Below are positions 23,667-46,201 of a stretch of DNA of 64,000 nt, piece after piece. The notes under the pieces were generated by a model that saw only the letters and a list, made by a program, of their open reading frames with translations, had not been told where the DNA came from and did not search any database. The translations under genes were made by a program, and so were the position numbers. Where the stretch lies: positions 124,001 to 188,000 of the forward strand of contig NZ_NFJZ01000006.1 of assembly GCF_002160135.1 (NCBI RefSeq), given 5' to 3'. This DNA comes from Lachnoclostridium sp. An196. Its GTDB lineage: Bacteria > Bacillota > Clostridia > Lachnospirales > Lachnospiraceae. Positions within the stretch are counted from its first letter, which is position 1. Every line of letters starts with the position of its first letter.

Positions 23667-24497
23667 TTATTTTTCTATGCGATTTGTATTCTGCTTTGCG
23701 ATCATACCCAGCAGATACCTTTTATGATATCTGATCTGTACATACTTCATGATTCTTCGATAATATACCGGATTTCCCGCGCCGCCCAGGAGTCCTACTA
23801 CCGGCAGTCCCTGAATAAATTTAAGCAGAAGCATATCTGCTGCAAAAGCCTTCGCAGTCCGGTCTGTCTGCTCTTGCAGCAAGTTTTTTGCCTCTTCTGC
23901 CGAAGGGAGTGCGGCACACATGGCATCCACCTCCCTGTCGGCACGAATCCTCTCTTCTCCCCGGCTAAGAGACGCTTCCATCATCTTCAGGATAAAAAGA
24001 CGCTCCTGCGGACTGTCATAATCAAATCCATAGTGCAGCGCCGCTTCATAGGCTCCTTTCATCAGCATCCCGATAAAAATCACGATATCAGGAAGCCCGA
24101 TCCCCAGAAGTCCCAGACCGGCTCCTTCCACCGTAGTAAGCGCCATATTGCGCAGATCCGCCGCTCCTGCGGCTTTCCTCATTCTTCTCAGTTCCCTGCG
24201 GTTTCCTTTCAACTCTACCGCATATGCCTGTATCTCATGGTCTTTCTGAAGTTCTTCTTTATCATAGGTCTTTTCGATCAGCGTATTCCCATGCTGAAAT
24301 ACCACAGAAAAAGCTTTGCAGAACGCCTTTTCCAGACTTACGCGCACTTTTTCAGGCACTTTGGTCTCCAGTGCCTTTTTCCACTCCGGCGGTTCCTGTT
24401 TCTCTGCGGATCTTTCCAGACGCCTTTCCCGCTTCTCCAGTTGTTCCAGTTCTTTCTGCAAAGCGGCCAGAAGCCGCCGGTCAGGATGTGCTCCCAT
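23667..24497 (-). CDS. EcsC-family protein
   Basis: 276 residues. A charged, coiled-coil N-terminus (about 10-50) is followed by the EcsC region: ALTTVEGAGLGLLGIGLPDIVIFIGMLMKGAYEAALHYGFDYDSPQE (read in parts, about 120-167) and a second Gly-rich hydrophobic hairpin (LLKFIQGLPVVGLLGGAGN, about 227-245). EcsC proteins occur with ABC exporters, but none is here. It is the last gene of the island transcript, 30 bases after the DUF1810 gene; the hydrophobic hairpins suggest membrane association. Confidence 0.78.
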   Translation of the reverse strand: MGAHPDRRLLAALQKELEQLEKRERRLERSAEKQEPPEWKKALETKVPEKVRVSLEKAFCKAFSVVFQHGNTLIEKTYDKEELQKDHEIQAYAVELKGNRRELRRMRKAAGAADLRNMALTTVEGAGLGLLGIGLPDIVIFIGMLMKGAYEAALHYGFDYDSPQERLFILKMMEASLSRGEERIRADREVDAMCAALPSAEEAKNLLQEQTDRTAKAFAADMLLLKFIQGLPVVGLLGGAGNPVYYRRIMKYVQIRYHKRYLLGMIAKQNTNRIEK

Positions 24498-24527
24498 CTT
24501 TGACTGTTCCTTTCTTTCCGGAAATCT

Positions 24528-24944
24528 TTATATTTTTCTCAGCAGCTGCAAGGTCCGTTCGTCCCGCTTCCCGCCAAAATATTTGTCAAGCACCTTCCGG
24601 AACACCTCCTGCTCCGGCGCGGCGGCTTCAAACAGCGTCATGGAAGACCGCAGCTTCATGTCATCCGGATATCCGAACACTTCGTGGGCGTCGTCCGTCT
24701 CCAGATCCAGTAGCGCTCCGGATATTTCCAGCAGACGGCCGCCCAGCACCTGGTCCGTCATATAGTCCTTCGCCTCCTGCAAATCGGCGATGGCGTAATA
24801 CTGCGCCGTACTGCTCATTCCCAGTCCCGCGATCTGCGGAAATATATACCACATCCAATGGCTGCGTTTCCGGCCGGTTTTTATCTCCTTCAAAGCCTGC
24901 CCGTAAGAATCTTCCTGCGCCGCGTAAAATCGTTCCAGGCTCAT
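24528..24944 (-). CDS. DUF1810-family protein
   Basis: 138 residues from the ATG at 24944 (AAGGAT site; the start lies 4 bases after the preceding stop). The family signature is clear: LERFYAAQEDSYGQALKEIK, RKSHWMWYIFPQ-type motif (RSHWMWYIFPQIAGLGMS) and VLGGRLLEISGALL. No biochemical role is established for DUF1810. Here it follows an LRR gene and lies in a set rich in ADP-ribose enzymes, which suggests, but does not show, a nucleotide-related role. Confidence 0.85.
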   Translation of the reverse strand: MSLERFYAAQEDSYGQALKEIKTGRKRSHWMWYIFPQIAGLGMSSTAQYYAIADLQEAKDYMTDQVLGGRLLEISGALLDLETDDAHEVFGYPDDMKLRSSMTLFEAAAPEQEVFRKVLDKYFGGKRDERTLQLLRKI

Positions 24945-24948
24945 GCGA

Positions 24949-27006
24949 TCATCCTTCCTTTCCCTTTCCTTCCAGGAACTCCACTCCCCATCCGCCGCTC
25001 TGGCAGAAAGCATCGTCGTGGAGATCCACTTTTTCTATCCAATCATCCTGGTTTCCCCGGTATACCATGCACGGTATGGAACATCCTCTAAATGCCAGTT
25101 CCTCAATATAGCGGATGCTCTTCGGCAATACTATTGATGTCAGGCTGCAGCCGGAAAACGCGCTGCTGTAGATACACGCCAGTCCTTCCGGCAGATCGAT
25201 CCCGGTCAGGCTTTTACAGTCTGCGAAACCATATTTGCTGATCCTCTTCAGACTCTTAGGAAGCACTACTTTTTTCAGGCTCTCACAGCCCAGAAAAGCC
25301 GCTTTCCCAAACTCCCTGATTCCTTCCGGCAGCTGCAGTTCCCGCAGCGAACTGCAGCCCTGAAACGCTTCTTCTTCGATATCCTTCACGCTTTCCGGAA
25401 AATGAATTTCCTGCAGGGATCTGCACTCTTTAAAAGCTCTCTTTCCGATCTCTTCCAGCTGCTCAGGCAGAATAATCTCCCGCAGATCTTCGCATCCGGC
25501 AAACGCATAATCCCCGATACGCTTCACGCCTGCCGGCACCCTGTAGGACGCCCTTCCCTTTCTTGGAAAGAATACCAGTTCCGCTCCTTCTTTGTCAAAC
25601 AGAACGCCATCCTGTTCCGTATAATATCTGTTTTTTATATTTTGCAGCCCGCATCCTGTAAACGCCTCCAGACATAAATTTTCCATGTTAACAGGGAAAG
25701 TGACAGATTTCAGGGACACACAGCCTTCGAAAGACCGCTCGCCCAATCTTGTCAGGCTGTCCGGAAAACGGACCTCTTCCAGGCTGCTGCATTTCCAAAA
25801 GGCGAATTTGCAGATTCCGGTAACTCCTTCCGGGATTATCACCCGTTTCAGAAAGGCATTGCCGCAGAATGCATCTTCATCGATCCATACCGTCCCTCCG
25901 GGAACCGTGTACTCTTCGTCCTTTTTCCCTGCGGGATACTGCTGCAGTTCTTTGCCGTCCGGCGAGAACTGCACTCCGTTTACGATACGGCATACGCTGC
26001 AGCCCGGCGCGGCTTCGACCGCTTCAAGAGAAGTACATCCCGTAAAAACTCCATTCCCATATTCTTTCAAATTCCCGGGCAGCCGGAGCTTCTTCAGATT
26101 CCGGCACTCGTTGAATGCACGTGAGCCGATCTTCCGGACGCTTTCGGGAACAGTCACTTTTTCCAGTATATAACATTCTGTAAAAGCACTTGAACCGATG
26201 GACTGCAGGCCGTTTTCCAGCACTGCTTCTCTCAGTCCGCTGCATCCACAGAATGCGCTGTCTCCGATGGACCGGACCGATTTTGGTATGACTGCCCGTC
26301 TAAGCCCCTTACAGCCAAGAAAGGCCCTTTCACCAATACCGGTTACCGGAAGTCCGTCCACTGTCTCCGGGACAACCAGGTCTCCTGCGAATTCCCGGGA
26401 ATCCACCAGCACCACGCCTCTTCTGGAAGCATCTGTCTCAAACCAGAGCTTCTGTCCGTTCCCGGGCAGAATAACGCAGAATCTTTCTCCGGGCTTATGC
26501 CTCTTTTTCTTATTCTCTCTTCCCGGAATTACCCCGTGCTCTTTCAGAAGATCCGTAAGCCCCGCCGGCGCGGCCTGAAGATTCCGGCACCAGACCGCGT
26601 ACGCCAGGGCGTACCCTCCTGTACAGTATGCTCCGTCCACGCTTCCGGGAACATCTCCCTGAGTCAGATAGAGCGCGTGCCAGCTGTCATACTGCCTGTC
26701 CCCGCTGTCGAAAGTGGGAATATCCAGGAAAAGCCCTACGGCCTTTTTCCCGTTTCTCATCTGATACAGGACGGCATCCGCATTTCCGAAGGCTTTGGGG
26801 AATTCCGCTATCCGTTCTCCAAAGGAAAGGCGGGGGTCCGTCCCTTCTTCCGCGCGTGTGTATCCCGCGAAACAGATTCTCGCGCCAAAATCATTTTTCA
26901 GGCGCAGCTCCACATCCTTCGCTTCCGCAGTCTTCACGTTTCCGGCCGGAGACGGAGACTCCTCTCCAAATAATATTTTTCTCAGCCATTTATCCAAATA
27001 TCCCAT
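24949..27006 (-). CDS. Large leucine-rich-repeat (LRR_5) protein
   Basis: 685 residues from the ATG at 27006, which has GAGGAGG 6 bases upstream; 27009 is also possible. Residues 1-200 are a non-repeat domain (DAVLYQMRNGKKAVGLFLDI, TFDSGDRQYDSWHALYLTQG). Residues about 205-680 hold roughly 17-19 LRR_5 units of the pattern LREVILPxSVxxIGxxAFxxCxSLxx. BspA-like repeats usually occur on surface proteins, yet there is no signal peptide or sorting signal, so this is a cytoplasmic repeat protein, perhaps a sensor or scaffold. It overlaps the ADP-ribosylglycohydrolase gene. Confidence 0.85.
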   Translation of the reverse strand: MGYLDKWLRKILFGEESPSPAGNVKTAEAKDVELRLKNDFGARICFAGYTRAEEGTDPRLSFGERIAEFPKAFGNADAVLYQMRNGKKAVGLFLDIPTFDSGDRQYDSWHALYLTQGDVPGSVDGAYCTGGYALAYAVWCRNLQAAPAGLTDLLKEHGVIPGRENKKKRHKPGERFCVILPGNGQKLWFETDASRRGVVLVDSREFAGDLVVPETVDGLPVTGIGERAFLGCKGLRRAVIPKSVRSIGDSAFCGCSGLREAVLENGLQSIGSSAFTECYILEKVTVPESVRKIGSRAFNECRNLKKLRLPGNLKEYGNGVFTGCTSLEAVEAAPGCSVCRIVNGVQFSPDGKELQQYPAGKKDEEYTVPGGTVWIDEDAFCGNAFLKRVIIPEGVTGICKFAFWKCSSLEEVRFPDSLTRLGERSFEGCVSLKSVTFPVNMENLCLEAFTGCGLQNIKNRYYTEQDGVLFDKEGAELVFFPRKGRASYRVPAGVKRIGDYAFAGCEDLREIILPEQLEEIGKRAFKECRSLQEIHFPESVKDIEEEAFQGCSSLRELQLPEGIREFGKAAFLGCESLKKVVLPKSLKRISKYGFADCKSLTGIDLPEGLACIYSSAFSGCSLTSIVLPKSIRYIEELAFRGCSIPCMVYRGNQDDWIEKVDLHDDAFCQSGGWGVEFLEGKGKEG

Positions 27007-27988
27007 CATTCTCCTCCTCGTCCTCTCCGCGTTCCATCGCTTTGCATGCCTTTTCGATCACCGGCTTCCCCTTCAACGCATCCAGCCAGTCCCGGGGGAT
27101 CCCGCCGTACCCATAAACCAGCCCTGCCAGTCCTCCGGCTACAGCGCCCGTGGTATCCGTATCTTCCCCCAGATTCACCGCTTTCAAGAGGCACTCACGA
27201 TAACTGTCCGTAGTCAGGAGACACCAGAGCGACGCGATCAGCGTATCTACTACATACCCGCTGCTCCCGATCTCTCTCTCCGGCTTCTCTGCCAGGGAAA
27301 CGGTATCCAGGAGCGGCTCCCAGACCGGCAACGCTTCCTCAAATTTTTCGTGGCGTCTGTACCAGCCGACCGATGCCGAGACGCCCTCCTGAACGGCTGC
27401 TGTCTTGTCCGTTCCTGCCAGCAGTCTCGCCGCAATATTTACATAGATCCCGCAGGCGGACTGAGCGATGGGATGGCGGTGCGTCAGGCCGGATACCTTA
27501 TGGGTCATGTCCATCGCCTTTGCAGATCCTGTCAGATCCGTACCGTATCTGGCAGAAAGATAATACGCCATGGGAAGTATTCTCATAAGAGAGCCATTGC
27601 CGTTGGAGGTTCTCTGATTGCCTCCGCACAAAACGGGAACCGCTCCTTCCTTATAGCGGAACAGCGCCTGCGCCACTGTATGCCCGCAGTCGAACCGCTC
27701 TCCCCATGGGGAATATTTTCCATCTTCAAACCATTCCAGAAACCGATCCATAATATCGTGCGTATGGATGCCTCCGGTTTCCCCTATGCTCTGTGCCAGA
27801 CACAGAGTCATGCTGCCGTCGTCCGACCAGGTCCCTTCCGGCTGTCTATGTGTTCCCCAACCCGTCATCCCGGTCACCGGACATTCCCTCAGCTCTTTTC
27901 GGCTTCGGAATTCTGCCGGCACGCCCAGTGCGTCTCCCACGCATACTCCATAGATCCCGCTGCGGAGCTGATACCCTCTGTCCGTCAT
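26990..27988 (-). CDS. ADP-ribosylglycohydrolase (DraG/ARH-like)
   Basis: 332 residues. The metal-binding motifs of the family are intact: GVCVGDALGVPAEF (about 14-27), TWSDDGSMTLCLAQSI (about 53-68, the DD pair) and NLGEDTDTTGAVAGGLAGLVYG (about 271-292, the D-x-D). Such enzymes remove ADP-ribose from proteins, nucleic acids or small molecules. It lies 6 bases after a gene encoding NADAR and NadD-like domains, so the two probably act on related ADP-ribose substrates. Its 3' end overlaps the LRR gene by about 17 bases. Confidence 0.93.
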   Translation of the reverse strand: MTDRGYQLRSGIYGVCVGDALGVPAEFRSRKELRECPVTGMTGWGTHRQPEGTWSDDGSMTLCLAQSIGETGGIHTHDIMDRFLEWFEDGKYSPWGERFDCGHTVAQALFRYKEGAVPVLCGGNQRTSNGNGSLMRILPMAYYLSARYGTDLTGSAKAMDMTHKVSGLTHRHPIAQSACGIYVNIAARLLAGTDKTAAVQEGVSASVGWYRRHEKFEEALPVWEPLLDTVSLAEKPEREIGSSGYVVDTLIASLWCLLTTDSYRECLLKAVNLGEDTDTTGAVAGGLAGLVYGYGGIPRDWLDALKGKPVIEKACKAMERGEDEEENDGIFG

Positions 27989-27994
27989 AGCCTA

Positions 27995-30250
27995 TCACCC
28001 CTCATCTTTTCTGTCAGTCTGTTCCCTAAGTTCTCTGCGTACCTGCATCAGAATCCTTCCCAGATGATTGTCACCCTTGCCCGTCCTTAAATCGACGCCC
28101 CAGTAAGTATCGCCCCAGGTATTGCCCTCAATAAGGGGGATCTCTCCGGTGGCGAGAAGCTTTTCTTTCAGCTCCGGGTTCTGGGAGAATTTTGCGCGGA
28201 CGATTTCTTCCATCAGCGCTGTCTTCACTTCCTCCCAGTCCGGCCTCAGCTGTACCTGACGACCCAGGCGCTTGGCCTTGTTGGACGGAAGACAGGTAAA
28301 CTGCTGCTTTTCTTCCTCTGTCAGGCATTTCTGCGCCTGAAACGCAGCCTCGGAATTCAGATAACGAAGTCCTCCATACTCGATTTCCGCCGGATAGAAA
28401 TTACTCAGAAAATCATACTCTTCCCGGAAACGGTCAATGACCTCCGGGATTTTTCCGTTCTTTTTCAACAGCTCCCATACCTCCTTTGTGACCATCTCTC
28501 TTGCCGACGTATCATGACGGCGAACCTTCTCGCGGAATCCCGAGGAGCTGACGGTATCCAGCCAGTCCGGGACCTTAAATACCGCGAAAGACTCCCTATA
28601 CTCCGCCAGGAACGGATGATTCATGATCACCGTTTCCGGCGACTCCCCTCTGCGCTTTGCCACCAGGATACCAAACTTCTCTACAAATTCTCTGATCCGG
28701 TGCCAGCGCGGAATAATATGCAGTTTATCGCTGCCCGCCACAAAGAGTATCCGGCTCTCCGGATAGTGTTCCTGGATCTTTTCCAGCGTTTCAAAAGTAA
28801 AGCTTTTCTCTCCTTTGGGACGGCGCAGCTCAGACTCATCCACTGCCAAACGCCTGTCGCCGGCACACATGCTTTGCAGCATCTTAAGACGCAGTTCATC
28901 CGGCAGAGCCTCCTCCTGATGTCCGGTCTTTTTCAGCTTTCTCTCCACATACCAAAACGGGGTCGGCACAAACAGTCCCAACTGTGCATCCGCCGCGTCC
29001 ACGGCAGCTTTCAAAAGCGCCAGATGCGCTGCCGTGGGCGGATTGAACGAGCCTCCCAGTACCACGATGCGCGGGCGGTCCTCCTCTGTTTTAACTCTGG
29101 TAAAATCCCGGGACAGCGCCATTTCTGAATCCGGCCCACCGTTTTCTCCGAATTCTTCTGTCTGTCTGCTCTTCCTTCCCGCTTCCGCCATTCTTTCCGC
29201 ATCTTCCCGGCTCATTTCCGGATTTGCGAACCGCAGAAGCTCCCAGAACAGTTCTGCACGGGTCTGCACATGATTCGCCCTGCAGCTGCTTCCTTTCTTC
29301 AGATACAGCTTTGCTCCTTTCAGCAGATTCACATCCAGACGGAACTGCGGATCCTGATCGTACACTGCCTGATACAGGCGGTCCATCAGACAGTCGTACT
29401 CCGCGCTTTCCCTCGCATACGCCTCTCCCCGCCAGTACAGTGTCTGTGTCTCTTTCCATCCTGGATCCATTCCCGCCTCATAAGCCTCCCGGCCGCTAAG
29501 ACCGCAGATTTCTTCCTGCACGGCCGAATCAGGAAATTTCAGGCTTTGAAGCACTCCCTCCAGTGATCCGCACACTACATCGTCGAATACAAAGTGTCTT
29601 TCCTGCCGGTTGTGCAGCCGCAGGGCAAATCCGCTGCCGCTGCTGTTGATCCAAAGTTCCAGCGGTCTGCGGAAATGTTCCGGAATCCGTCGCATGCTCT
29701 CTTCTTCCAGGCCCGTGCATTCCTCAAAAGAATTGTCCCAGACTGCCGTGTCCGCGCTCTCAAAGATAACCGAACGCAGCGCCGTACAGCCGGAAAATAC
29801 TTCCTTTTCCACCGTCCGCACACCTGCAGGAATTACAGCCTCTTTCAGACGGCAGCAGCCGGCGAACACCCGGTTGCTGAGGGACATAAGCTGCCCTGGC
29901 AGCCTGACCCGTGACAGCCCCGAACAATCCTGGAACGCAGCATCCTGCACAGACCTAACGCTGTCCGGGAGAATCATTTCTTTCAGATTACTGCACTTTT
30001 CAAACGCATGCTCACCAATACGTTTTATATTTTCTCCCATTTCAACCGACTCAAGCGCTTCGCACTCTGCAAATGCAAAACTGCTGATCTTCATCACAGT
30101 GTCCGGAATCCGGACGCTTCGCAGCCGTTTGTTGCCAAAAAACGCCCGGTTTGCAATCTGAACGGTCCCTTCCGGAATCACCAGATCTGTCTCATCCCCC
30201 GAATAGCTTATCAAATTGCCGTCTTCTATCTGCCACATTTCTGTTTCCAC
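27995..30250 (-). CDS. Four-part fusion: LRR_5, unknown domain, NadD-like nucleotidyltransferase, NADAR
   Basis: 751 residues. About 20-185: LRR_5 repeats (LVIPEGTVQIANRAFFGNKR etc.). About 215-345: a domain with GSLEGVLQSLKF...QEEICGLSG...LYWRGEAYARESAEY, recalled as a widespread uncharacterised stand-alone family. About 393-595: NadD-like adenylyltransferase (VVLGGSFNPPTAAHL; AGSDKLHIIPRW; SSSGFREKVRR). About 604-745: NADAR (EEYDFLSNFYPAEIEYGG; SEAAFQAQK; AKFSQNPELKEKLLATGE; NTWGDTYWGVD). NADAR domains hydrolyse ADP-ribosyl N-glycosidic bonds. The combination suggests making and unmaking an ADP-ribose-type compound, read by the LRR part; this is inference. Confidence 0.85.
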   Translation of the reverse strand: METEMWQIEDGNLISYSGDETDLVIPEGTVQIANRAFFGNKRLRSVRIPDTVMKISSFAFAECEALESVEMGENIKRIGEHAFEKCSNLKEMILPDSVRSVQDAAFQDCSGLSRVRLPGQLMSLSNRVFAGCCRLKEAVIPAGVRTVEKEVFSGCTALRSVIFESADTAVWDNSFEECTGLEEESMRRIPEHFRRPLELWINSSGSGFALRLHNRQERHFVFDDVVCGSLEGVLQSLKFPDSAVQEEICGLSGREAYEAGMDPGWKETQTLYWRGEAYARESAEYDCLMDRLYQAVYDQDPQFRLDVNLLKGAKLYLKKGSSCRANHVQTRAELFWELLRFANPEMSREDAERMAEAGRKSRQTEEFGENGGPDSEMALSRDFTRVKTEEDRPRIVVLGGSFNPPTAAHLALLKAAVDAADAQLGLFVPTPFWYVERKLKKTGHQEEALPDELRLKMLQSMCAGDRRLAVDESELRRPKGEKSFTFETLEKIQEHYPESRILFVAGSDKLHIIPRWHRIREFVEKFGILVAKRRGESPETVIMNHPFLAEYRESFAVFKVPDWLDTVSSSGFREKVRRHDTSAREMVTKEVWELLKKNGKIPEVIDRFREEYDFLSNFYPAEIEYGGLRYLNSEAAFQAQKCLTEEEKQQFTCLPSNKAKRLGRQVQLRPDWEEVKTALMEEIVRAKFSQNPELKEKLLATGEIPLIEGNTWGDTYWGVDLRTGKGDNHLGRILMQVRRELREQTDRKDEG

Positions 30251-30253
30251 CTT

Positions 30254-31099
30254 TCACATGATGATCCACTCTACTCTCTGCGCCGAAGCACGCTCGGGCG
30301 GCGTCAGCCGCTCCAGCATACGGGCTATTTCCTGCTCCGGTATCTTCTTATCCGGATATATCTCTCCCCGTTCCCGGTTGCGCCGAAGTTCTTCCTCCCA
30401 GCCTGTTTCCAGATATACGATCCGCACCGCCGCCCCGTATTCTTCAAACAGCCGCACATTTTTCTCCCTCAGATCCGGGGTGAGATTCACCGCGTTCCAC
30501 ACAAAGGGCCGGCGTGCGCGCAGATATTTTCTGGCCTGCTCCCGGGCGGCAGCGGCTACGGGACCCTGGGCCTTTGTCGGCGGGATCTTCATTTCCCGGC
30601 GTATCTCATCCAGCGATACCACCGGCAGATCCGGACAATACTCCCGGATCCAGGTATCCTTTCCCGTCCCGGGCAGGCCGCACATGAGGATCACCTCGCC
30701 CCAGGTGTCGTCATAGAGTTCCCCGTCCGGCCAGTCCAGTCTCCCGTTCAGATAGGCTCTCTGCGTATACGCGGAGGGAAAACATTTCGGGCTTTCCAGA
30801 CATCCCAGTTCCTCTGCCAGAAGCTCTGTGAGGACGACGCGCCCGGCCAGATCCTCTGTGTCATCCGCCAGGCGGCCCAGCGCGTCTGCCCTGGAAAGCA
30901 GACAGAGCAGAGACATCCGAAAATCCCCGGCCAGCTCTCCGTTCGCCGCGATCCGGATCAGTTTTCTCTTGTCCTCGTTCTCTCCCAGATGTACCGGATC
31001 CATGTGATGCCTGATCAGGGCGCAGACCGTTTCACGGAAATTCTGAAGGCCGGAATCGCCGGGCCATCCGCACAGCCGCGAATACTGCTTTTTCCACAT
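30254..31099 (-). pseudogene. HD/polynucleotide-kinase-like protein missing its N-terminus
   Basis: 281 codons. The C-terminal two thirds form an intact P-loop kinase: VILMCGLPGTGKDTWIRE (Walker A), PVVSLDEIRREMKI, KYLRARRPFVWNAVN and a RNRERG lid with PERASAQRVEWIIM. Relatives carry an N-terminal HD phosphohydrolase; here only its last part remains (ETVCALIRHHMDPVHLG) and the catalytic HD is gone. The apparent start codon has no ribosome site and lies inside the methyltransferase gene in another frame. A deletion joined two genes near 31041-31060. Such kinases are linked to nucleic-acid end repair. Residual expression is uncertain. Confidence 0.7.
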
Positions 31100-31523
31100 C
31101 GGGAATGTGTTCCAGTACCTCCAGGACCGTTACTACGTCAAAGGATTTCTCCGGGAACGGCTGAAGGCAGATGTCTCCCTGCTCCGCCCGGAGATTTGTG
31201 ATTCCTCCCCGGCTCAGATCCTGCAGAAACTCCACCCGGTGCGCCAGCAGGTCAACCGATGTGACCTCCACCCATGGAAACGCTTCCAGAAAAGGAAAAA
31301 GAAATACTCCTCTGCCGCTCCCCACATCCAGAAGGTTCTCCGGCTGAACCGAACGCAGAAAGCCAAGCGTCTTCCTCACACGGGGCAATTCCTCATGGCC
31401 GCGTTTAAAATAATAAAGCTTCGGATCCTGCACTCCGGCATCCGCCTGTCCGGTCCGGACCGCGCGGCCCCTGAAATAGGCCTGGGCCAGACGCTCATAG
31501 TAATCTTTGTTCATATCTTTCAT
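31032..31523 (-). pseudogene. SAM-dependent methyltransferase truncated at its C-terminus
   Basis: 163 codons. A class I methyltransferase N-terminus is well preserved: ENLLDVGSGRGVFLFPFLEAF (motif I), VTSVDLLAHRVEFL (motif II), DVVTVLEVLEHIPDVEKAV (motif IV/post-I). The fold then stops at ARRF followed by RPSEFP and a stop, before the last strands. This is the same point where the downstream kinase begins mid-domain. Start is coupled to the metallophosphoesterase by an ATGA overlap. Probably inactive; originally a methyltransferase beside an end-repair kinase. Confidence 0.65.
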
Positions 31524-32716: not shown

Positions 32717-32722
32717 AGCAGA

Positions 32723-33043: not shown

Positions 33044-33075
33044 CTTGTCTTCCTGCTTTCTGATATAAAATAACT

Positions 33076-33861: not shown

Positions 33862-33913
33862 AATATATAATTTTTACGTCATTTCTGCATTTTTCCCAAT
33901 CAGAACAGCAGAA

Positions 33914-39024: not shown

Positions 39025-39038
39025 TGCCGCCCCCTGTT

Positions 39039-39653
39039 TCATGAAAATATCTGTTCCGCTTCCCTGCGGGCATTCTCCCATGTCTGTCTGTAATGACTGT
39101 ATTCCTTCTTTTCACATGCAAGGACTATTTCTTCCGTAATATCCAGAAGCTGTTTTCTGACCCCTCGCAGCCGCTCCGCCGTCATGCCGTCTTTCCCGGC
39201 GTCTTTCAGCTGATTGCTCAGATACTGCAGTTCCATCATCTCTTTCTGCACCGGGACAAACGGTATCCGGTTGTCGATAAACTGCAGGACGAGCCGGGAG
39301 ATCTTTTCCGGCTGCCACTGTTCGCGGAAAGACAGCCGGTACAGTCCGGCGTCAAACCCGTTTTCCTTTACCGTACGTTCCTGTTTCTTCAGTTCTTTTT
39401 CCACGCGCCGGTAATCCGGCTCTGTTCCGCAGAAACGGATCAGCAGTTCGTCGTCGTTCAGATACTCCATCAGTTCCGGCAGGATCCCGTCCCACCGCTG
39501 ATAGGACACGGTCCTGCGGGGCAGCCATTTCTCTATGGATTTCCCCACAAAAAAATCTTTCAGCCTTCCGTCCCCGCCGTAGTGCCAGCTGCCGTCTATG
39601 GTCAGACCGGCCTTTTCTGTATAAGGATTATAGATCATGTCTATTTTTTTCAT
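39039..39653 (-). CDS. Unknown protein between GTPase and HerA-like genes
   Basis: 204 residues from the ATG at 39653 (GGAG 9 bases upstream). The start YNPYTEKAGLTIDGSWHYGG and a middle block QRWDGILPELMEYLNDDELL are distinctive, followed by a helical, charged C-terminal half. No family recognised. It may bind the HerA-like ATPase encoded 14 bases downstream. Confidence 0.72.
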   Translation of the reverse strand: MKKIDMIYNPYTEKAGLTIDGSWHYGGDGRLKDFFVGKSIEKWLPRRTVSYQRWDGILPELMEYLNDDELLIRFCGTEPDYRRVEKELKKQERTVKENGFDAGLYRLSFREQWQPEKISRLVLQFIDNRIPFVPVQKEMMELQYLSNQLKDAGKDGMTAERLRGVRKQLLDITEEIVLACEKKEYSHYRQTWENARREAEQIFS

Positions 39654-39717
39654 GTCGTCACGCTCCGTTTTTAAGGCCGCTGCGCTCCACACGGCGCAGC
39701 GGCCTTTTCCAGACAGA

Positions 39718-41745
39718 TTATATTGCTACATCATATTTCCGGCTGATCTGTTCCGCTTCGGCCGCGATCTTCTGCAGTTCTTCCGCCGCCTCGTTCCGCC
39801 TCCGGATTTCCAGATCCTTTTCGTCCTTTTCCTTGGATATCCCTCCGATCGTCGCGTTGATCAGCGCTTCTTTCTGCTCGACGTCCGCTTTCAGCGCCGC
39901 GGACATATCGCTGCAGACCTTGCCCAGATGCGCGTTTACATTTTTCATGATGCTGTCCACATTTTTCCGCTGGTCTTCTGTGGCCTTGGCAAATTCTTTC
40001 CGGCTGTTTTCCGTCACGGATTTCATAATCTTTGCTTTCTGTTTTTCCGTATTGGAGCTGAGTATGCTGATCAGATCTCCCAGAATGATCGCCCCTATGA
40101 AAGCAGGGAGGCTGACGGCCACGCCCATGGCAAGCAATGTTCCCGTAACTACTCCGATCCCTGCCTGAATCGCGACGCTCTTCGCGAGAACGCCCTTTCC
40201 ATAGGCAACGCTCATGGCCCCTGTGTACCAGTCTCCCGTGAGCACTCCGAAACATACGCCCAGAGCCGCGCTGGACACCGCCCCTGAGTTTCCTCCCTTC
40301 ACAGTTCCGTCCGTCAGTATCACATCCACATCGTTCAGCTGTTCCGCGACCGTTACCAGGTCTTTCTGAATCCCCTCCATACACTGCTGTTCCAGTCTGA
40401 TCAGATAAGGAGACAGCTCGCGGCTGAGCCAGCGGTTCATCTCTTTTCTCATCCTTCTGGAATATTCTTCCATACATTCCTGCTGGAGCGCTTTGGCCTT
40501 CTTTCTGGCTCCCACCGGGTTCAGTTTTCCAAAGCTTTTTGCCAGCTCCCCATCCGGTTCGTAGTCTTCCAGATCTACCTGGTCAGCCAGTCCGGAGATG
40601 TATTCTTCTACTTTTGACTTCACCTGCGGGTAACACCCGTTCATGGCAAGACGGAACGATTTTTCCGTGGATTCGGCGTTCATCTTCGCGATCTCCAGCT
40701 GCTTTCTGGCGTTCGCGATGCGTCTTTCCAGTTCTCCGGAATCCACTTCAGCGGCTTTATTGCGCGTCCCGGCCTCTTTCTGCATTACGGCGGCATAGCC
40801 GGCGATGGCGCCTGACATCACGCGGATCTGGTCACGGCCTTTATTTTCCACAAGGTATTTGGTCAGGAATTTTTCCAGCCCGTCGTAGCCGGACTGTACC
40901 AGCAGCTTCTGGTCATGCTGCATCTTCGCCCTCAGGCCGTCCAGAGACGACAGGAAATGTACGGATTCCTCTCCCAGATCGCCGTGCTTCAAAGCATGCC
41001 CGATCAGCACCTTCCTGATCTGTTCCACCTTTGCCGGAGGCTGGCTGCTGATGATATCATAGAAGGAATACCCGAAAATAATATTCCTGAGCCCCAGTCC
41101 GTTGATCTCGTTCAGCTGTTTCATATCCTCTTTCTGGTATGCCTGCTGGGAATTCATCAGATAAATGATCGCGTCCGCCGTCGGCAGATACCCTCTGGTG
41201 ATGTAATCGTTGCTGTACGGGTCATTGATACCGGGAGAATCCACCAGTACGACGCCGTCCTTCAGGATCTCCAGCGGCCAGTGGATCACCATCTTTTCAA
41301 ATTTGGAGCGGATCTTGTCGGAATCATCCGCTTTGCAGTTCATGCCCGCTTCGTTGTCGATGGAGGCGTACTTCGCGATCTCCTCGCTGGACGGATTGAC
41401 AAGGGTGAAGGGAGTATCCCCTCCTTCCCACTCTCCTTTTTTCGGATACAGCGTCACCTTTTTTTCCGTGCTGTAGTGCATCTCCCCCAGCACTGCCGTT
41501 TCCGGCAGGAAACCGGTGGGCAGCAGTTCCTCTCCGATCAACGCGTTGATCATACTGCTTTTGCCGGAAGAAAAGATCCCCATGACCAGCACCACGAACT
41601 TCTCTCCGGTCTTTTCCTTCGTCTTGGCCAGATCCTCTTTCCAGACTGTATTTTCCGGCGCGATAACCGCCGCGCACTGCTCCTCCCTCGAGATCAGCGC
41701 CGCCAGTTCTTCCAGGACTTTTTTGTGTTCTTCCATTCTTGCCAT
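39718..41745 (-). CDS. Dynamin-like membrane GTPase (second of three)
   Basis: 675 residues from the ATG at 41745 (AGAGG 8 bases upstream). G1 GIFSSGKSSMINALIG (about 56-71), G3 VDSPGINDPYS, and a helical middle region. Two membrane hairpins follow (SSAALGVCFGVLTGDW..., about 500-525, and IQAGIGVVTGTLLAMGVAVSL..IGAIILGDLISIL, about 535-580), then a long C-terminal coiled coil. This is the layout of bacterial dynamin-like proteins with a paddle that enters the membrane. It starts 19 bases after the stop of the neighbouring GTPase. Confidence 0.85.
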   Translation of the reverse strand: MARMEEHKKVLEELAALISREEQCAAVIAPENTVWKEDLAKTKEKTGEKFVVLVMGIFSSGKSSMINALIGEELLPTGFLPETAVLGEMHYSTEKKVTLYPKKGEWEGGDTPFTLVNPSSEEIAKYASIDNEAGMNCKADDSDKIRSKFEKMVIHWPLEILKDGVVLVDSPGINDPYSNDYITRGYLPTADAIIYLMNSQQAYQKEDMKQLNEINGLGLRNIIFGYSFYDIISSQPPAKVEQIRKVLIGHALKHGDLGEESVHFLSSLDGLRAKMQHDQKLLVQSGYDGLEKFLTKYLVENKGRDQIRVMSGAIAGYAAVMQKEAGTRNKAAEVDSGELERRIANARKQLEIAKMNAESTEKSFRLAMNGCYPQVKSKVEEYISGLADQVDLEDYEPDGELAKSFGKLNPVGARKKAKALQQECMEEYSRRMRKEMNRWLSRELSPYLIRLEQQCMEGIQKDLVTVAEQLNDVDVILTDGTVKGGNSGAVSSAALGVCFGVLTGDWYTGAMSVAYGKGVLAKSVAIQAGIGVVTGTLLAMGVAVSLPAFIGAIILGDLISILSSNTEKQKAKIMKSVTENSRKEFAKATEDQRKNVDSIMKNVNAHLGKVCSDMSAALKADVEQKEALINATIGGISKEKDEKDLEIRRRNEAAEELQKIAAEAEQISRKYDVAI

Positions 41746-41764
41746 AACAGGTTCCTCTCTTCTT

Positions 41765-43321
41765 TCATTCATATTTTGTATCGTCCAGCAGCTCCCGGCA
41801 CCGGGCAAGCAGCGAATTCAGTTCCTCTGTCCTGCGCTGCGCCGCGCTTTCGTCCGCCTGAGGCGGCTGCAGCGCTTCTGCCCTTTTCCGGATCGTGTCT
41901 GCCAGTTTTCCATAGTAATCTCTCACGGAAGCGGACAGGGCGTCTCCCAGATTTCTCAGATTCATCCGGCTGTATTCCCGGATCTGCTGTTCCCAGAGTT
42001 TTTCCGACTTTTCTTTTTTGTCTTTCAGATACGCCGAGCCTCCGATCCCCGCCGCCGCTACGGTCCCGGCCACTCCCAGCGTCGTGGGGATCGGCAGCAG
42101 CAGGAACAGTCCCGCCGCGATCCCTGTTCCAAGCAGGATCCGGGAATCCCCGGAGTACTTCGCTTTTTCGATCTGGAGTCTGTACCCCGGTTTTGTCACA
42201 CTGGTCATCAGCACAAAATCCGCGTCCGTCAGGTCGAATCCGGTGGTCAGGCCCAGATTGACCGCGCGTTTCATCATATCTCTGCAGTCCTCCCGCATCC
42301 TGGTTTCGATCTGCTCTTTCTGGCTCTCCGCCAGAGACTGTATCTTTTCCTCCATCAGCCTCGGAATCTGCTTTCTGATCCAGTCCTCGTCAAACTGCGC
42401 TTCTCTCGCTGATGCATACAGTTCTTCGCTGACAGCGGCCTGCGCCCTTTCCGTATTTTCTCTCACCTTTGTCAGGAGTTCGTCGCACCGTTCCAGCATC
42501 TGCGCCCGCAGCCTTCTCCATAAAGCCTGCTGTTCCTGTGTTTCCAGAGTCTTTCGGGCATGTTCTTCCATGTCCTGTCTGCTTTTCACGGCCGCGCCGC
42601 GGATCTGTTCCCGGATGGCCGCTTCCAGTTCCCCGGCCGCCTCTCTCCGGACGGCCTCCATATGTTCCCTGCGCAGCAGCTCCCGCTCCTTCCAGGACGG
42701 AAGGGCGCGGCGGAAAGTTTTTGCCGCCTGATCCCATCGGACGTCTTTCAGCACCAGCGGGGCAGGCACGCCCAGCCCGGCACATATTTTCTCCGCGTAG
42801 TCCTCTACCTGGTCCGACGAATCCTCGTCCAGCAGATCCATCTTGTTCAAAACCACCTGTACCTTCAAAAAAGACAGGGCGCGCACCGCTTCCATATCTG
42901 CCGCTGTAAAAGGAGCCACAGCGGAAATCACATAAAACACCACGTCCGCCAGGTCCAGTATGCGCTTCGGCTTTCCGTCTTCTTCCAGAATGTCGTCCAG
43001 CTTCATCTCATACAGCACCGCGTCTTCATTGTTCCACTCCCGGTTCGCGACTGTCCGGTTCTCAAAACCGTTTTCCTCCTCTGCTTTTTCAAAGACGACT
43101 CTCAGCGGCTTTTCCTTTTCGCTGAGAAGCCCCGGCTCCCGAAGCACCGTTCCCGTGATGCCGTTCAGGACCGTCGTTTTCCCGCAGTTCATGCCTCCGG
43201 TCACAAACACTCCCGTCTTTGTCCGCTCATTAATCTGCCGTATCCTTTCCGAAGCAGTCCCGGTCAGGTCTTTCCGGCCCGCCTTGTCGGCAATCGCCTG
43301 CAGTTCTTCAAAATTGACCAT
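41765..43321 (-). CDS. Dynamin-like membrane GTPase (first of three, divergent)
   Basis: 518 residues. G1 is GGMNCGKTTVLNGI (about 42-55) and G4 is VVLNKMDLLDE. The switch II DTPG is not recognisable; the equivalent region reads LDLADVVFYV, so hydrolysis may be impaired. Long coiled coils follow, then a membrane pair (GIAAGLFLLLPIPTTLGVAGTVAAAGIGGSAYL in parts, about 395-430) and a further coil. Bacterial dynamins often work as unequal pairs, so this one may be the partner of the 675-residue GTPase. Confidence 0.78.
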   Translation of the reverse strand: MVNFEELQAIADKAGRKDLTGTASERIRQINERTKTGVFVTGGMNCGKTTVLNGITGTVLREPGLLSEKEKPLRVVFEKAEEENGFENRTVANREWNNEDAVLYEMKLDDILEEDGKPKRILDLADVVFYVISAVAPFTAADMEAVRALSFLKVQVVLNKMDLLDEDSSDQVEDYAEKICAGLGVPAPLVLKDVRWDQAAKTFRRALPSWKERELLRREHMEAVRREAAGELEAAIREQIRGAAVKSRQDMEEHARKTLETQEQQALWRRLRAQMLERCDELLTKVRENTERAQAAVSEELYASAREAQFDEDWIRKQIPRLMEEKIQSLAESQKEQIETRMREDCRDMMKRAVNLGLTTGFDLTDADFVLMTSVTKPGYRLQIEKAKYSGDSRILLGTGIAAGLFLLLPIPTTLGVAGTVAAAGIGGSAYLKDKKEKSEKLWEQQIREYSRMNLRNLGDALSASVRDYYGKLADTIRKRAEALQPPQADESAAQRRTEELNSLLARCRELLDDTKYE

Positions 43322-43342
43322 TTTATTACCTCCCTGAATTAT

Positions 43343-44062
43343 TTATTGGAGTCCGGACAGTCTTTTTGCCACATGTGCGTACCAGGCGTCAGAGACAGGA
43401 AGCTGCTCTCCACCGGAAAGTTTTACCATGCGGCCCGCCTTGTCCAGCGCTTCAATATATATGATATTTACGATATAGCTTTTATGGATGCGGAGAAAAC
43501 ATTCCTCAAGCCCGCTGTCTTTAAGTCTTCTTTCTATCTCGGAAAGCTTCGCGAAAACACTGCATTCTTCCCGGCTCCTGGTGTGGATCTCCACGTATTT
43601 CAGACTGCTCTGAAAATACAGAATATCCCGCACGCCGAACACATAGCTGGTCTTCCTGGTCTCATAGAAGAATACTTTTCCGGATCCCGTAATCTCTCTC
43701 AGCAGTCCTTCCAGTTTCCGCCCGAAGACGTCCGGTTCCTGTTCCCACAGATAAAAAGAGATAGGCCTGGACGGAAGCAAAGGCTCCAGATCGCATTTTT
43801 TTGACTTATAGTAGCAGATCCTGCAGTCCGGATTAAAAGAATAGATCTGTTCGCCCATATGCCGGCTTTCCGGACTGTCCAGAGATATCAGCGCCAGCTG
43901 CATCTTCAGGGCATAAGTCTCCATCTTTTCCGCTGCCGACGCGTCTGTCATCCAGAGGATCTCGAAGTCACGGTCCGTCCGCACGGAACAGCTCACCAGC
44001 CTTTCCCTCATCTCCCTGATTATCTCTTTTCTGGTGTCATACACGCCTATGCAAAACAACAT
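43343..44062 (-). CDS. LytTR-type DNA-binding regulator with degenerate receiver
   Basis: 239 residues. The C-terminal LytTR domain is clear: TRKTSYVFGVRDILYFQSSLKYVEIHT...RIHKSYIVNIIYIEALDK (about 130-225). The N-terminal 110 residues fold like a receiver (FCIGVYDTRKEI; LALISLDSPESRHMGEQIYS) but the acidic pair is reduced to one Asp and the usual MP after the phospho-Asp is missing. There is no kinase gene beside it. It lies inside the island, between unknown genes and the GTPases, so it is the best candidate for island-specific control. Confidence 0.82.
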   Translation of the reverse strand: MLFCIGVYDTRKEIIREMRERLVSCSVRTDRDFEILWMTDASAAEKMETYALKMQLALISLDSPESRHMGEQIYSFNPDCRICYYKSKKCDLEPLLPSRPISFYLWEQEPDVFGRKLEGLLREITGSGKVFFYETRKTSYVFGVRDILYFQSSLKYVEIHTRSREECSVFAKLSEIERRLKDSGLEECFLRIHKSYIVNIIYIEALDKAGRMVKLSGGEQLPVSDAWYAHVAKRLSGLQ

Positions 44063-44521
44063 TTAACCTCCATACAGAATATCCGGTCTCAGTATCTTTT
44101 CTGTCTCTCTGCATTGATCCTGGTATTGACCCACCAGTATTTCCAGTTCTTTTTCCGGTCCTGTAAATCCCAGTATCCGGTCCGCGCGGGCATACAGGTT
44201 TACAAGAGCCGTCTTCCCCGCTTCCAGCACATAATCCGGATCCATGACGCACACAGGCCGGTCCGGCTCCTCTGCCGGCCCTTTACGCAGATCACGGAAA
44301 CAGACAATCTTCCTGTCCGGAAGCAGCAGTTCCAGTTCATACCGGTCCGGGAATATCAGGACCCGGCCCGGGCGGAAAATCCGGCGGTGCAGCAGATACC
44401 TCAGATACAGCGCGCCGTTTTCCAAATAAAGATAAGGTATCCCCGTCTGCATCTGTATGGGGATTTCTCTCTCCCAGAGAGGATGCCTGCGCAGTTCTTT
44501 TTCAATCATTTCCAGAGTCAT
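44063..44521 (-). CDS. Unknown island protein (152 residues)
   Basis: 152 residues, no recognised family. Start LEMIEKELRRHPLWEREIPI and a beta-rich middle (QTGIPYLYLENGALYLRYLL; PDRYELELLLPDRKIVCFRD). No membrane segment. It abuts the LytTR gene without a gap and overlaps the upstream gene by 4 bases, so it is co-translated with both. Confidence 0.68.
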   Translation of the reverse strand: MTLEMIEKELRRHPLWEREIPIQMQTGIPYLYLENGALYLRYLLHRRIFRPGRVLIFPDRYELELLLPDRKIVCFRDLRKGPAEEPDRPVCVMDPDYVLEAGKTALVNLYARADRILGFTGPEKELEILVGQYQDQCRETEKILRPDILYGG

Positions 44522-45105
44522 GGATCATCTCCCTTTTGAAGAATCAGTACGCGTCTTTCGCCCGAGTCCCACGCTCGCAGGAAACGTGTCAGAGGATATG
44601 TCTCAAGATCCGTGCCCTCCCGGCTCTCCCGCATCCGGGCGACCGTCACTGTTTCTCTGCCCGGCTCGGACAGATCTATCTTTTCCACGCTGGCTATCAT
44701 ATTTGCCGATATCCCGGGCAGCCGGTCCGCGTCCGGACGCTGCAGCACACAGTCGCTCAGCGTACACAGGACCTTCTCATCCGCGTCCAAAGCCTCTGTC
44801 AGATCCTCCAGAGACGCCTCTGTCCCCTCTTCCATAACGAGCTCCCTGTCACGAAAAAACATTCTCAGTCTGTGCCAGGAAATATTTCCTTCCGGATCCA
44901 TGGCTCCGCTTTCCCGGATTTCCCGCATGCTCCCGGCCAGCCACGCTCCGTCCGAATCCTCGTCTCCGCAGATCATCCGGTCTTCCTCGCCGTATTCTTC
45001 CGAAGTCTCCGCCGCTCCGACGCGTTCCAGATAGATCCCTTCTTCCAGACGCTCTACACCTTCCAGGCCATCGAACAGGTCCTGTATGTCAAACCTCTCT
45101 ATCAT
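44518..45105 (-). CDS. Unknown acidic island protein (195 residues)
   Basis: 195 residues, strongly acidic (RLEEGIYLERVGAAETSEEY, then GEEDRMICGDEDSDG). No family recognised, no signal peptide or membrane helix. Coupled to the next gene by an ATGA-type overlap. Confidence 0.66.
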   Translation of the reverse strand: MIERFDIQDLFDGLEGVERLEEGIYLERVGAAETSEEYGEEDRMICGDEDSDGAWLAGSMREIRESGAMDPEGNISWHRLRMFFRDRELVMEEGTEASLEDLTEALDADEKVLCTLSDCVLQRPDADRLPGISANMIASVEKIDLSEPGRETVTVARMRESREGTDLETYPLTRFLRAWDSGERRVLILQKGDDP

Positions 45106-45123
45106 CCCGACTGTCCTTTTCCG

Positions 45124-45408
45124 TCACCGGATGCCTTCCTTCAGCGCCTTTTTCGCAGCTTCCGGTTCACGGATCAGCCAGTCCAGGGTTAAGACCGCGC
45201 CGGTGAACATCATGTCATAGTCTCTCATAAGACTGTTCAGCGAATAACCGCTGTATTCCGTATCGTCTGATTCTTTCCCCGTATCCAGCCATTCCTGAAG
45301 CAGCGGCTTTAATTCCTCGCTGATCCCCTGCAGCTGTTTTTCTATCACCTCCGCCCGCTTTTCCGGGCTTCCCTGGCGTTCCATGACAATATCTTTGATT
45401 CTTCCCAT
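45124..45408 (-). CDS. Small helical island protein (94 residues)
   Basis: 94 residues: RIKDIVMERQGSPEKRAEVI then EKQLQGISEELKPLLQEWLD and a C-terminal helix pair. No family recognised. It lies 11 bases after the putative metallopeptidase gene and could be its partner or immunity-like protein, which is speculation. Confidence 0.65.
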   Translation of the reverse strand: MGRIKDIVMERQGSPEKRAEVIEKQLQGISEELKPLLQEWLDTGKESDDTEYSGYSLNSLMRDYDMMFTGAVLTLDWLIREPEAAKKALKEGIR

Positions 45409-45419
45409 CGTTTTACCTC

Positions 45420-46049
45420 CTACAGGCCAAGTTCATTGATCACAGTCTCAGCAAATACCCTTGCGTCCACTTCCACCGGCTGCGTATAATATTCCAGATA
45501 CCCTCTGTCCTTAAATATCAGACGGTCCCCGTTGTCATAGCCGAGATCTACATTATTTACTTTCCAGGAATCTACCAGTTCCTGGCTCTGCTCTACCCTC
45601 TCCACATACAGATTATAGTCCTGATATGCATGTCTGCCTTCATGAAGCAACGTATTCAGAGTCTCTGTATATCCGTCATAAGAATTATCCATCAATGAAT
45701 GGTCCGCAATGCGCAGTGTTGTTCCGTCAAAGGTTCCCATCAGAGTATCTTTCTCAAATGCAGCCATCTGCACATCCATAGGATCCCTCATGGCGATCTC
45801 GGCCACCTGCTGTTCCAGTTCATTCAGCGCCGCCACACGCTGTTCCCCGTTCAGTTCTACCCAATTTTCATACCGCAGTTCCGGAATGTCCAGAAACGCT
45901 TCCCGTATCTCCGCCGCCTGTACTTCAGAAGATGGGGCGAATTCCTGCGTCTCATCCGTCCGCATAAACATGGGCCATTCTGCATCATTGACCTCGGCAG
46001 CCGCTTCGTCAATCTCCATACCCTCCAGATTGTTTAAAATTTCCTGCAT
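45420..46049 (-). CDS. HExxH zinc-peptidase-like protein
   Basis: 209 residues. TLLHEGRHAYQDY (about 133-145) has the HExxH zinc motif (H136, E137, H140); YTQPVEVDARVFAETVINEL near the C-terminus offers an acidic third ligand, as in toxin-like peptidase domains. The N-terminal half is acidic and lacks a signal peptide. It is the first gene of the island transcript, behind GGAGAGGAG. A cytoplasmic protease or toxin-related domain is inferred; the substrate is unknown. Confidence 0.72.
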   Translation of the reverse strand: MQEILNNLEGMEIDEAAAEVNDAEWPMFMRTDETQEFAPSSEVQAAEIREAFLDIPELRYENWVELNGEQRVAALNELEQQVAEIAMRDPMDVQMAAFEKDTLMGTFDGTTLRIADHSLMDNSYDGYTETLNTLLHEGRHAYQDYNLYVERVEQSQELVDSWKVNNVDLGYDNGDRLIFKDRGYLEYYTQPVEVDARVFAETVINELGL

Positions 46050-46147
46050 AGCCGTGCTCCTCTCCCGTTTATTTGCCTTTATCTTATCTATTTCTCTTCG
46101 TATTTTATCAATTGTTCTTTTTCAGCCATCAAAACTGCATAATTATT

Positions 46148-46175: not shown

Positions 46176-46201
46176 TTTCCACAAAACCCTCCCACTAAAA
46201 A

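Follow-up and report, generated by a model that had tools for sequence, protein, structure and literature searches.

Twenty consecutive open reading frames (ORFs) lie head to tail on the minus strand of a 64,000-nucleotide stretch of the Lachnoclostridium sp. An196 genome (the window; G000:C27:124001-188000, from a genome of 3.25 Mb in 30 contigs), at positions 23667-46049. Do these genes form one system, and what would such a system do? A preliminary description made from the sequence had counted about 20 such genes, which our count matched, and had tentatively taken them for one system for defence or envelope stress. We numbered the genes g01-g20 by rising coordinate; transcription would proceed from g20 to g01. 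We found that about 13 kb, g09-g20 (32723-46049), belongs together and that the system ends near 32.7 kb. On balance, we read g20-g09 as a divergent member of an undescribed polymorphic-toxin family that has a HerA/VirB4-type ATPase and would be driven by this motor and by GTPases. The locus suggests a new way for bacteria to deploy toxins.

An ATPase family and its conserved operon

The HerA-like motor named in the preliminary description was identified as g12 (35782..39081), a HerA/VirB4-type ATPase of 1099 amino acids (aa) that would be the core motor. It matched Pfam DUF87 with 35.3 bits, and its HerA/DUF87 domain follows an N-terminal part of ~500 residues with a Ser/Gly-rich middle. The solved-structure relatives of the motor are HerA-type, and g12 reached only 13 bits against FtsK_SpoIIIE (cut-off 24). 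No NCBIfam model matched g12 at its cut-off; the best was CedD (66.2 bits, cut-off 600), and g12 scored 47.9 bits to ser_rich_anae_1 (cut-off 650) and 45.3 bits to anti-phage HerA (cut-off 800). Two relatives of g12 scored 80.8 and 88.9 bits to CedD, 69.6-91.6 bits to ser_rich_anae_1 and 51.3 and 65.2 bits to anti-phage HerA. Judged by its sequence, g12 belongs to a distinct full-length ATPase family, in whose tree it forms a long branch; the motor of L054 (Acinetobacter) is 22% identical.

A search of 145 relatives with the single g12 sequence gave matches in 20 genomes, 11 of which, besides the window's own, align with g12 over long stretches at 34-42% identity. Profile A1 was built from 18 sequences, g12 among them, so that g12's own A1 score proves nothing. 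Applied to 392 genomes of the order, it detected the family at 880 bits or more in 35 (own included; rows counted by hand); the tally at E 1e-100, which takes in sister families, was 44 of 392. In the phylum sample, 3 of 398 genomes, own included, carried the family, and 8 of 398 when sister families were added. Family plasmids came from Escherichia coli, Lactococcus cremoris, Treponema saccharophilum, Exiguobacterium acetylicum and Ruminococcus albus; 43 plasmid records matched the motor at all, seven of them over at least 80% of the query. Relatives were also present in two phage-collection records and seven IMG/VR contigs. The E. coli motor gene was found in one of 5426 E. coli genomes by near-identity DNA search, and the hit was the plasmid itself. 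A scan of genome contigs with g12 alone gave one locus, L032. In a sister HerA family (L083-L086, L090-L092; ~525-620 bits), a hydrophobic protein is encoded one or two genes behind the ATPase, in place of a recognised toxin, and at L082:405-3900 the ATPase gene was called as three pieces with a WHH-nuclease cargo behind it.

Loci with a family member of at least 850 bits numbered 55, and 53 remained after L032 (the window's sister copy) and L097 (a duplicate of L096) were dropped. The near-identical pairs L034/L055 and L064/L067 were kept, and sixteen sister-family or fragmented loci below 850 bits, L082 among them, were excluded. Genes in the fetched loci were called with a simple script, and some were missed (for example, in L052). 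The operon recurs in the 53 non-duplicate loci, which include named plasmids of Pseudomonadota, Bacilli, Clostridia and Spirochaetes. Its common order is a WYL regulator, one or two dynamin-like proteins, a small protein, the ATPase, a small protein and another, typically of 90-150 aa. The annotation of E. coli pTW10590_133 reads dynamin, dynamin, hypothetical, ATP-binding protein, HNH/ENDO VII nuclease and SMI1/KNR4, and those of Lactococcus and Treponema read WYL, dynamin, dynamin, one or two hypotheticals, ATPase and HNH endonuclease. A dynamin GTPase was among the nearest genes in 32 of the 53 loci, a dynamin GTPase or a g13-type adaptor in 41, the adaptor domain in 37 and a WYL regulator in 25. 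These results support the view that the HerA-type motor and the dynamin-like GTPases form one system, and to this extent the earlier one-system claim stood.

Dynamin_N matches above the cut-off of 27 bits place g14 (39718..41808; 95.2 bits) and g11 (33914..35785; 63.5 bits) in the dynamin superfamily, with g11 lying, unusually, directly behind the motor. The GTPase-like g15 (41765..43321) contains the Walker A motif GGMNCGKT and an NKMD motif, with 19.5 bits to GTP_EFTU (cut-off 26.5) and no Dynamin_N match. Thus, of the three membrane GTPases in the preliminary description, two were confirmed by Pfam, and the third is recognisable by its motifs without a Pfam match above cut-off. The only relative of g15 in the collected loci is its L032 orthologue. 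A search of 392 genomes with g14 gave only weak matches outside the window (best 128.7 bits), and a scan of viral contigs with g14 gave no relative.

Between g14 and the motor lies g13 (39039..39692), a stand-alone adaptor domain without a Pfam family. In other loci this domain mostly forms the N-terminus of a large protein of the dynamin type; some loci instead have it joined to a protein in which no GTPase is obvious. With g13 alone as the starting sequence, an iterated search found 29 other proteins, which aligned to the first 120 residues of g13. A six-seed adaptor profile matched 38 proteins; g13 was one of the seeds, and its own score there proves nothing. The product of the small gene before the ATPase carried a hydrophobic C-terminal tail, as read by a simple hydropathy scan and not by a topology predictor, in about one third of the loci (17 of 53, which is 17 of the 25 loci with such a gene: L034, L036, L042, L049-L051, L055-L058, L060, L061, L063, L065, L068, L076 and L088). 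The window locus is without a tail-anchored small gene.

Cargo genes, immunity genes and leaders

The genes directly behind the ATPase (+1 genes) were compared in 49 loci. The window's own was left aside, as were L035, L051 and L052, which have no called same-strand gene within 150 bases of the ATPase; the records of L051 and L052 annotate an HNH endonuclease there, which our gene caller missed. In 19 of the 49 loci, the +1 gene and the ATPase gene share 1 or 4 bases. Pfam matches among the +1 genes were WHH (14), Colicin-DNase (14), Endonuclea_NS_2 (9), LHH (6), Gln_amidase (2) and Ntox15 (1, in L036), so that about 32 of the 49 match toxin families in five classes, with WHH and Colicin-DNase counted as one. 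A motif check recognised 24 of the +1 toxins, none of them in two classes. The next genes (+2; 39 in number) matched the related families SUKH_6 (11), SMI1_KNR4 (10) and SUKH_5 (10), as well as DUF6985 (5), YezG-like (2) and Tdi1_C (1); immunity-like genes number at most 19 in all, the overlap between families being unchecked, and DUF6985 is a putative immunity family by its position.

As a control, 49 random genes of 90-550 aa were drawn from the same loci, at least six positions away and with dynamin and WYL genes excluded. They matched 80 families. None of the toxin families above was among the 25 listed, SUKH_5 occurred once, and the other 55 families were single, weaker matches each. Across the family, variable toxin domains thus occupy one conserved operon position, with an immunity gene directly behind the toxin. 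To judge by these domains, what follows the motor is a typical set of polymorphic-toxin and immunity genes, and we consider it very probable that the family is a toxin-immunity system. The defence or envelope-stress role given in the preliminary description overlooks this; use of the toxin machine in defence stays the main rival. In a sub-type (L074, L099-L101; three of the four on virus-like contigs), the ATPase gene is followed by a gene for an acidic protein of 165-191 aa and then by one for an adaptor-domain protein.

Polymorphic toxins combine a conserved N-terminal part with different toxin domains, and this arrangement was found in the family. Where two cargos of different type lie in one operon, their first 60 residues were alike in seven of seven operons (z 4.1-14.9, p <=0.006); these tandem operons were chosen by eye after the sequences had been seen. 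The nuclease and zincin cargos of the L038, L059, L071, L072 and L096 operons share leaders in this way. We also compared the leaders of 46 first cargos in 826 pairs with unrelated C-termini, using our own cut-offs. A leader score of at least 45 was reached by 54% of 39 pairs at 50-70% ATPase identity and by both pairs above 70%, and by 5.1% of 195 pairs at 40-50%, 3.8% of 584 pairs at 30-40% and one of six below 30%. The rank correlation between leader score and ATPase identity is small and was reached by 9 of 1000 label permutations. Leader sharing of this kind is expected if the cognate motor reads the leader.

The window locus and its neighbours

In the window, the motor's neighbours depart from the usual arrangement, and the genes run in the order GTPases g15 and g14, adaptor g13, motor g12, dynamin g11, g10 and g09. 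We read the locus, from its sequence, as a divergent member of the family with putatively proteolytic cargo: the pairs g10/g09 and g20/g19 and a dead copy, g18, with g17. The two peptidase-like proteins of the preliminary description, g10 and g20, are supported through their relatives, and neither has a confident Pfam match; searches of solved structures with both gave nothing at E up to 1.

The candidate toxin g10 (33076..33861) resembles papain/C39-like proteases; by eye, it retains the Cys, the His and the Asp, with the motifs GTCG and NHAV and an Asp further on. It had no Pfam match and aligns with L047_14 (z 8.1), which itself scored 19.6 bits to Peptidase_C39_2 (cut-off 24). Among 139 other relatives, two carry homologues of g10. 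One (in G001) lies directly behind a sister HerA gene (z 19.1). The other (in G042) forms the C-terminus of a protein of 318 aa, whose locus resembles the type VII secretion system (T7SS) and contains a WXG100-like gene (25.2 bits, cut-off 27.3) and an FtsK_SpoIIIE ATPase (100.8 bits); the N-terminus of this protein has no Pfam match, and its likeness to a WXG-type hairpin was judged by eye only. One toxin-like domain therefore appears with different front parts in two systems. A third relative came from a plasmid search (31.6% over residues 74-260) and lies on a replicon of Burkholderia stagnalis that carries no annotation. Directly behind g10 lies g09 (32723..33136), a candidate immunity protein. 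A search of 60 other relatives gave no homologue of g09, which is what a rapidly changing immunity gene would show but is no proof of the role. We rejected a kinship of g09 with the protein encoded behind the G001 relative of g10, since the two showed no similarity (z -1.3).

The second candidate toxin, g20 (45420..46049), is a zincin-like putative metallopeptidase with HEGRH and a later EVDARVF by eye. In Pfam it matched DUF3920 only, at E 0.007 and below cut-off. Its kin are the zincins encoded after the nuclease cargo in L038, L059, L071, L072 and L096 (z 7.2-14.5), of which L071_07 matched DUF6782, a putative metallopeptidase family, with 28.5 bits (cut-off 27). Its partner g19 (45124..45408; 94 aa), a candidate immunity protein, is akin to the 96-98-aa proteins directly after these zincins (z 4.6-9.4). 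The immunity role of both g09 and g19 is suggested by position and similarity only. The degenerate C39/papain-like g18 (44518..45105) aligns with L047_14 (z 8.1), with its catalytic Cys and His positions lost (alignment, by eye), and g17 (44063..44521), its possible partner, is weakly similar to L047_15, the gene after the C39-like gene in L047 (z 2.7, p 0.019).

The LytTR regulator reported earlier was confirmed as g16 (43343..44062; Pfam LytTR 63.8 bits). This protein stands in place of the WYL regulator, none of which lies near g16. Its sole known relative outside L032 is L047_16 of G031 (z 46). We rejected the idea of a LytTR trio as a widespread module: at E 1e-15, g16 matched none of 135 other genomes of the order, G031 not certainly being among them. 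The sister locus L047:8116-15525 of G031 encodes a distant HerA, a transmembrane protein, an active-looking C39-like protease, a g17-like protein, a LytTR protein and a leucine-rich repeat (LRR) protein, and the fetched stretch of L047 contains no dynamin.

L032 is a contig of a related metagenome-assembled genome (MAG) of an uncultured Lachnospiraceae, with g11-g22 86-95% identical to the window in DNA. A stretch of 1500 bases at 32911..34410, covering part of g09, g10 and the end of g11, is identical between the two; g11 as a whole is 93% identical, its identical end counted in. The identical run stops abruptly inside g11 and reaches the L032 contig end on the other side. Identity over 1500 bases, set against 86-95% around it, fits an exchange of the g10/g09 cassette.

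The same-strand genes g01-g08 (23667..32716) are accessory genes outside the conserved system. Pfam identified EcsC (g01), DUF1810 (g02), a BspA-type LRR protein (g03), an ADP-ribosylglycohydrolase (g04), an AAA_33 kinase (g06), a methyltransferase (g07) and a metallophosphoesterase (g08). In g05 (27995-30250), BspA-type LRR, Phage_30_3, NadD-like nucleotidyltransferase and NADAR domains are fused in one protein. Together these matches bear out the ADP-ribosylglycohydrolase, the metallophosphoesterase, the LRR proteins (g03 and g05) and the NADAR/NadD fusion of the preliminary description. A search of 98 genomes with g05 gave matches in six besides the window's own, the NadD+NADAR part occurring only in G031, where L109_10 corresponds to the NadD-NADAR half alone at 64% identity; the 20 kb fetched around it contain no HerA-family gene. 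The kinase/methyltransferase scar was also upheld: g06 has 281 aa, a truncated form of a protein for which four same-genus relatives have open frames of 391-394 aa. A fifth same-genus relative has 196 aa only, and in one of the four the match spans residues 133-387 of 389. In the g06/g07 region (30254-31523), a deletion would have joined what look like leftovers of two genes, one for a methyltransferase and a longer one for a kinase.

In the neighbourhoods of 70 collected loci, mostly 10-20 kb each and some on short contigs, g01, g02, g04, g06, g07 and g08 had no homologue (E 1e-3), and g03 and g05 directly matched LRR proteins only, in three loci (L037, L047 and L051). Because g01, g02, g04 and g06-g08 do not recur with the motor and the GTPases, we rejected the part of the one-system claim that extended it to 20 genes and 22 kb. 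In close relatives, g01-g08 occurring apart from g09-g20 was seen in part (the g06 relatives in the genus). The core of the earlier grouping, g09-g20, is real, and a polymorphic-toxin machine describes it better than an envelope-stress or NAD system does.

The island is chromosomal and has housekeeping genes on its left, with Ffh at 20274-21623 (Pfam) and proteins like those of ylxM, rpsP, rimM, trmD and rplS (recognised by eye); a two-component pair and MgtE lie on its right. Among the collected loci, the window (20274-22025) and L065 (12002-13798) are the only two with a ylxM-ffh pair downstream of the island. Because the pair adjoins both islands, a common chromosomal insertion site is suggested. 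The Pfam scan of the 20 proteins found no integrase or phage structural family, in agreement with the preliminary description. The many 4-base overlaps that it noted were overstated: three are exact (g07/g08, g11/g12 and g17/g18), and six others measure 20-68 bases, several of which are probably artefacts of mechanical start calls. In 28600-48400, promoter-like sites numbered 11 versus 11.8 in shuffles, and terminator-like sites numbered 24 versus 17.7 (standard deviation 4.5).

Proposed working, rival readings and meaning

We propose that cytosolic cargo toxins would be kept harmless by the neighbouring immunity protein. The cognate ATPase ring, by itself or together with the adaptor domain, would recognise a short N-terminal leader on the cargo. 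The ring would be held at the membrane by the tail-anchored partner where present, or by hydrophobic stretches of its own, and the dynamin-like GTPases beside it would remodel the membrane. ATP hydrolysis would then expel the cargo, most likely into a competing neighbour, which the nuclease or protease domains would kill unless it has the immunity protein. The recurring gene order, the toxin and immunity matches, the shared leaders that go with ATPase relatedness and the hydrophobic tails are seen in the sequences; leader recognition, placement at the membrane and expulsion of the cargo are inferred. Export of toxins by motor and GTPases has, in our estimate, a slightly better than even chance of being correct. 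More tentatively, and at somewhat less than even chances, the family may be an unrecognised, widely transferred toxin-secretion machine in which a HerA-type hexamer pulls leader-tagged toxins while dynamins open or bud the membrane. Such a machine would be a compact analogue of type VII secretion able to serve bacteria with one membrane or two, and its version in the window would deliver proteases under LytTR control.

Several described systems share features with the family. Polymorphic toxin systems (Zhang et al. 2012, PMC3482391) likewise have exchangeable C-terminal nuclease, amidase or protease domains, a shared N-terminal part and adjacent SUKH, YezG or Tdi1 immunity genes. The portion of that paper covered here names the routes type II, V, VI, VII, PVC, PrsW, MuF and TcdB/TcaC, none of which it describes with a separate HerA ATPase, dynamins and a WYL regulator; the cargos of the present family are small. 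Type VII secretion (ESX/EssC with WXG/LXG toxins) also couples a HerA/FtsK-superfamily ATPase to leader-bearing toxins, and the toxin-like domain of g10 occurs in the T7SS-locus protein of G042. Unlike type VII loci, however, g01-g20 contain no WXG100, LXG or FtsK_SpoIIIE match above cut-off, g12 is not an EssC ATPase of the FtsK/SpoIIIE type, the 49 +1 genes include no WXG/LXG match in Pfam, and the family occurs also in E. coli and adds GTPases and an adaptor. The NCBIfam family ser_rich_anae_1 (NF033849, 'serine-rich protein') likewise has a Ser-rich part followed by an ATPase domain; it gave the best NCBIfam score of the relative L050 (91.6 bits), far under its cut-off of 650. Anti-phage HerA systems encode a HerA-type ATPase with a nuclease, but the present motors scored 45.3-65.2 bits against the cut-off of 800, carry an extra N-terminal and Ser/Gly-rich region of ~500 aa, and have an immunity gene beside them. 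LeoABC has paired dynamin-like GTPases in a different operon; the window reached 17.7-65.2 bits to the PADLOC Leo models, and g11 and g14 reached 19 and 16.5 bits to NCBIfam LeoA (cut-off 325). Leo dynamins have been linked to toxin release in vesicles. A literature search for polymorphic toxin, HerA and dynamin together gave no match, one for polymorphic toxin and dynamin gave matches, by title, on Neisseria meningitidis only, and other combinations of terms described no such system among the matches listed (titles and abstract starts). The locus type is most likely undescribed.

A number of observations weigh against reading the locus as a toxin-export system. In the family, 17 of the 49 +1 genes match no toxin family and about 20 of the 39 +2 genes match no immunity family, the +2 genes including Big_2 in four, a polysaccharide deacetylase in one and a transglutaminase in one; L054 (Acinetobacter), L074 and L099-L101 have no recognised toxin behind the ATPase, and 12 of the 53 loci (some on short contigs or with missed gene calls) lack both a dynamin GTPase and the adaptor. 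Overall, leader and ATPase correlate only weakly (rho 0.15). The gene set shows neither a channel nor any component that would span the envelope, and the occurrence of the same small set in one- and two-membrane bacteria (E. coli, Treponema) is hard for a classical secretion machine. In the window, the dynamin g11 and not a toxin lies directly behind the ATPase, neither g10 nor g20 can be assigned with confidence to a Pfam toxin family, and the candidate cargos share no leader in their first 60 residues (g20/g18 p 0.076, g20/g10 p 0.50, g18/g10 p 0.52). The identical run shared with L032 could be an assembly chimera at the MAG contig end. Finally, phage-defence loci, too, typically have WYL regulators and HerA ATPases and are carried on mobile elements.

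These last features lead to the strongest alternative, intracellular phage defence by abortive infection, in which the ATPase/GTPase assembly keeps a leader-tagged toxin inactive at the membrane and frees it inside its own cell upon infection or membrane damage, the immunity protein acting as antitoxin. The WYL regulators of 25 of the 53 loci, the carriage on plasmids and virus-like contigs, and the PADLOC matches of the motor (mad8 and HerA models) and the GTPases (Leo models) fit this alternative, PADLOC holding defence models only, and leader-ATPase matching would fit sequestration too. We nevertheless regard it as rather unlikely: several partner families (SUKH, YezG, Tdi1) belong to toxins that act between cells, operons that combine tandem toxin-immunity pairs of different type typically serve competition, a T7SS-like locus also has the g10 domain, and the motor falls far below the NCBIfam cut-off for anti-phage HerA.

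That HerA moves DNA in a transfer or plasmid-maintenance module, with the toxin-immunity pair as an addiction or anti-competitor module of mobile elements, appears improbable. Among named NCBIfam families the motor does score near DNA motors (CedD), its solved relatives are HerA-type, and six of the 43 matching plasmid records are typed conjugative, but the window copy is chromosomal and beside ffh, the ATPase-matching leader sits on a toxin, and the conserved set has no relaxase or pilus gene. Least probable of all, and very improbable in our judgement, is a single defence or envelope-stress system of all 20 genes over 22 kb, including the ADP-ribose enzymes. Tight packing on one strand speaks for it, and the ADP-ribosylglycohydrolase, NADAR and RNA-end kinase/methyltransferase could repair toxin damage; as a speculation, the accessory genes g01-g08 may serve such repair. 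Against this stand the absence of homologues of g01, g02, g04 and g06-g08 in the collected neighbourhoods and the NadD-NADAR pair of G031, which has no HerA-family gene near it.

If the toxin-export reading is true, bacteria would have a further compact toxin route, without a contractile needle, a type VII apparatus or surface repeats. Bacterial dynamins, whose roles are mostly obscure, would gain a testable job in toxin release, and the leaders would be offered for targeting studies. Plasmid genes annotated 'ATP-binding protein', 'dynamin family protein' and 'hypothetical protein', from E. coli to Lactococcus, would acquire a meaning.

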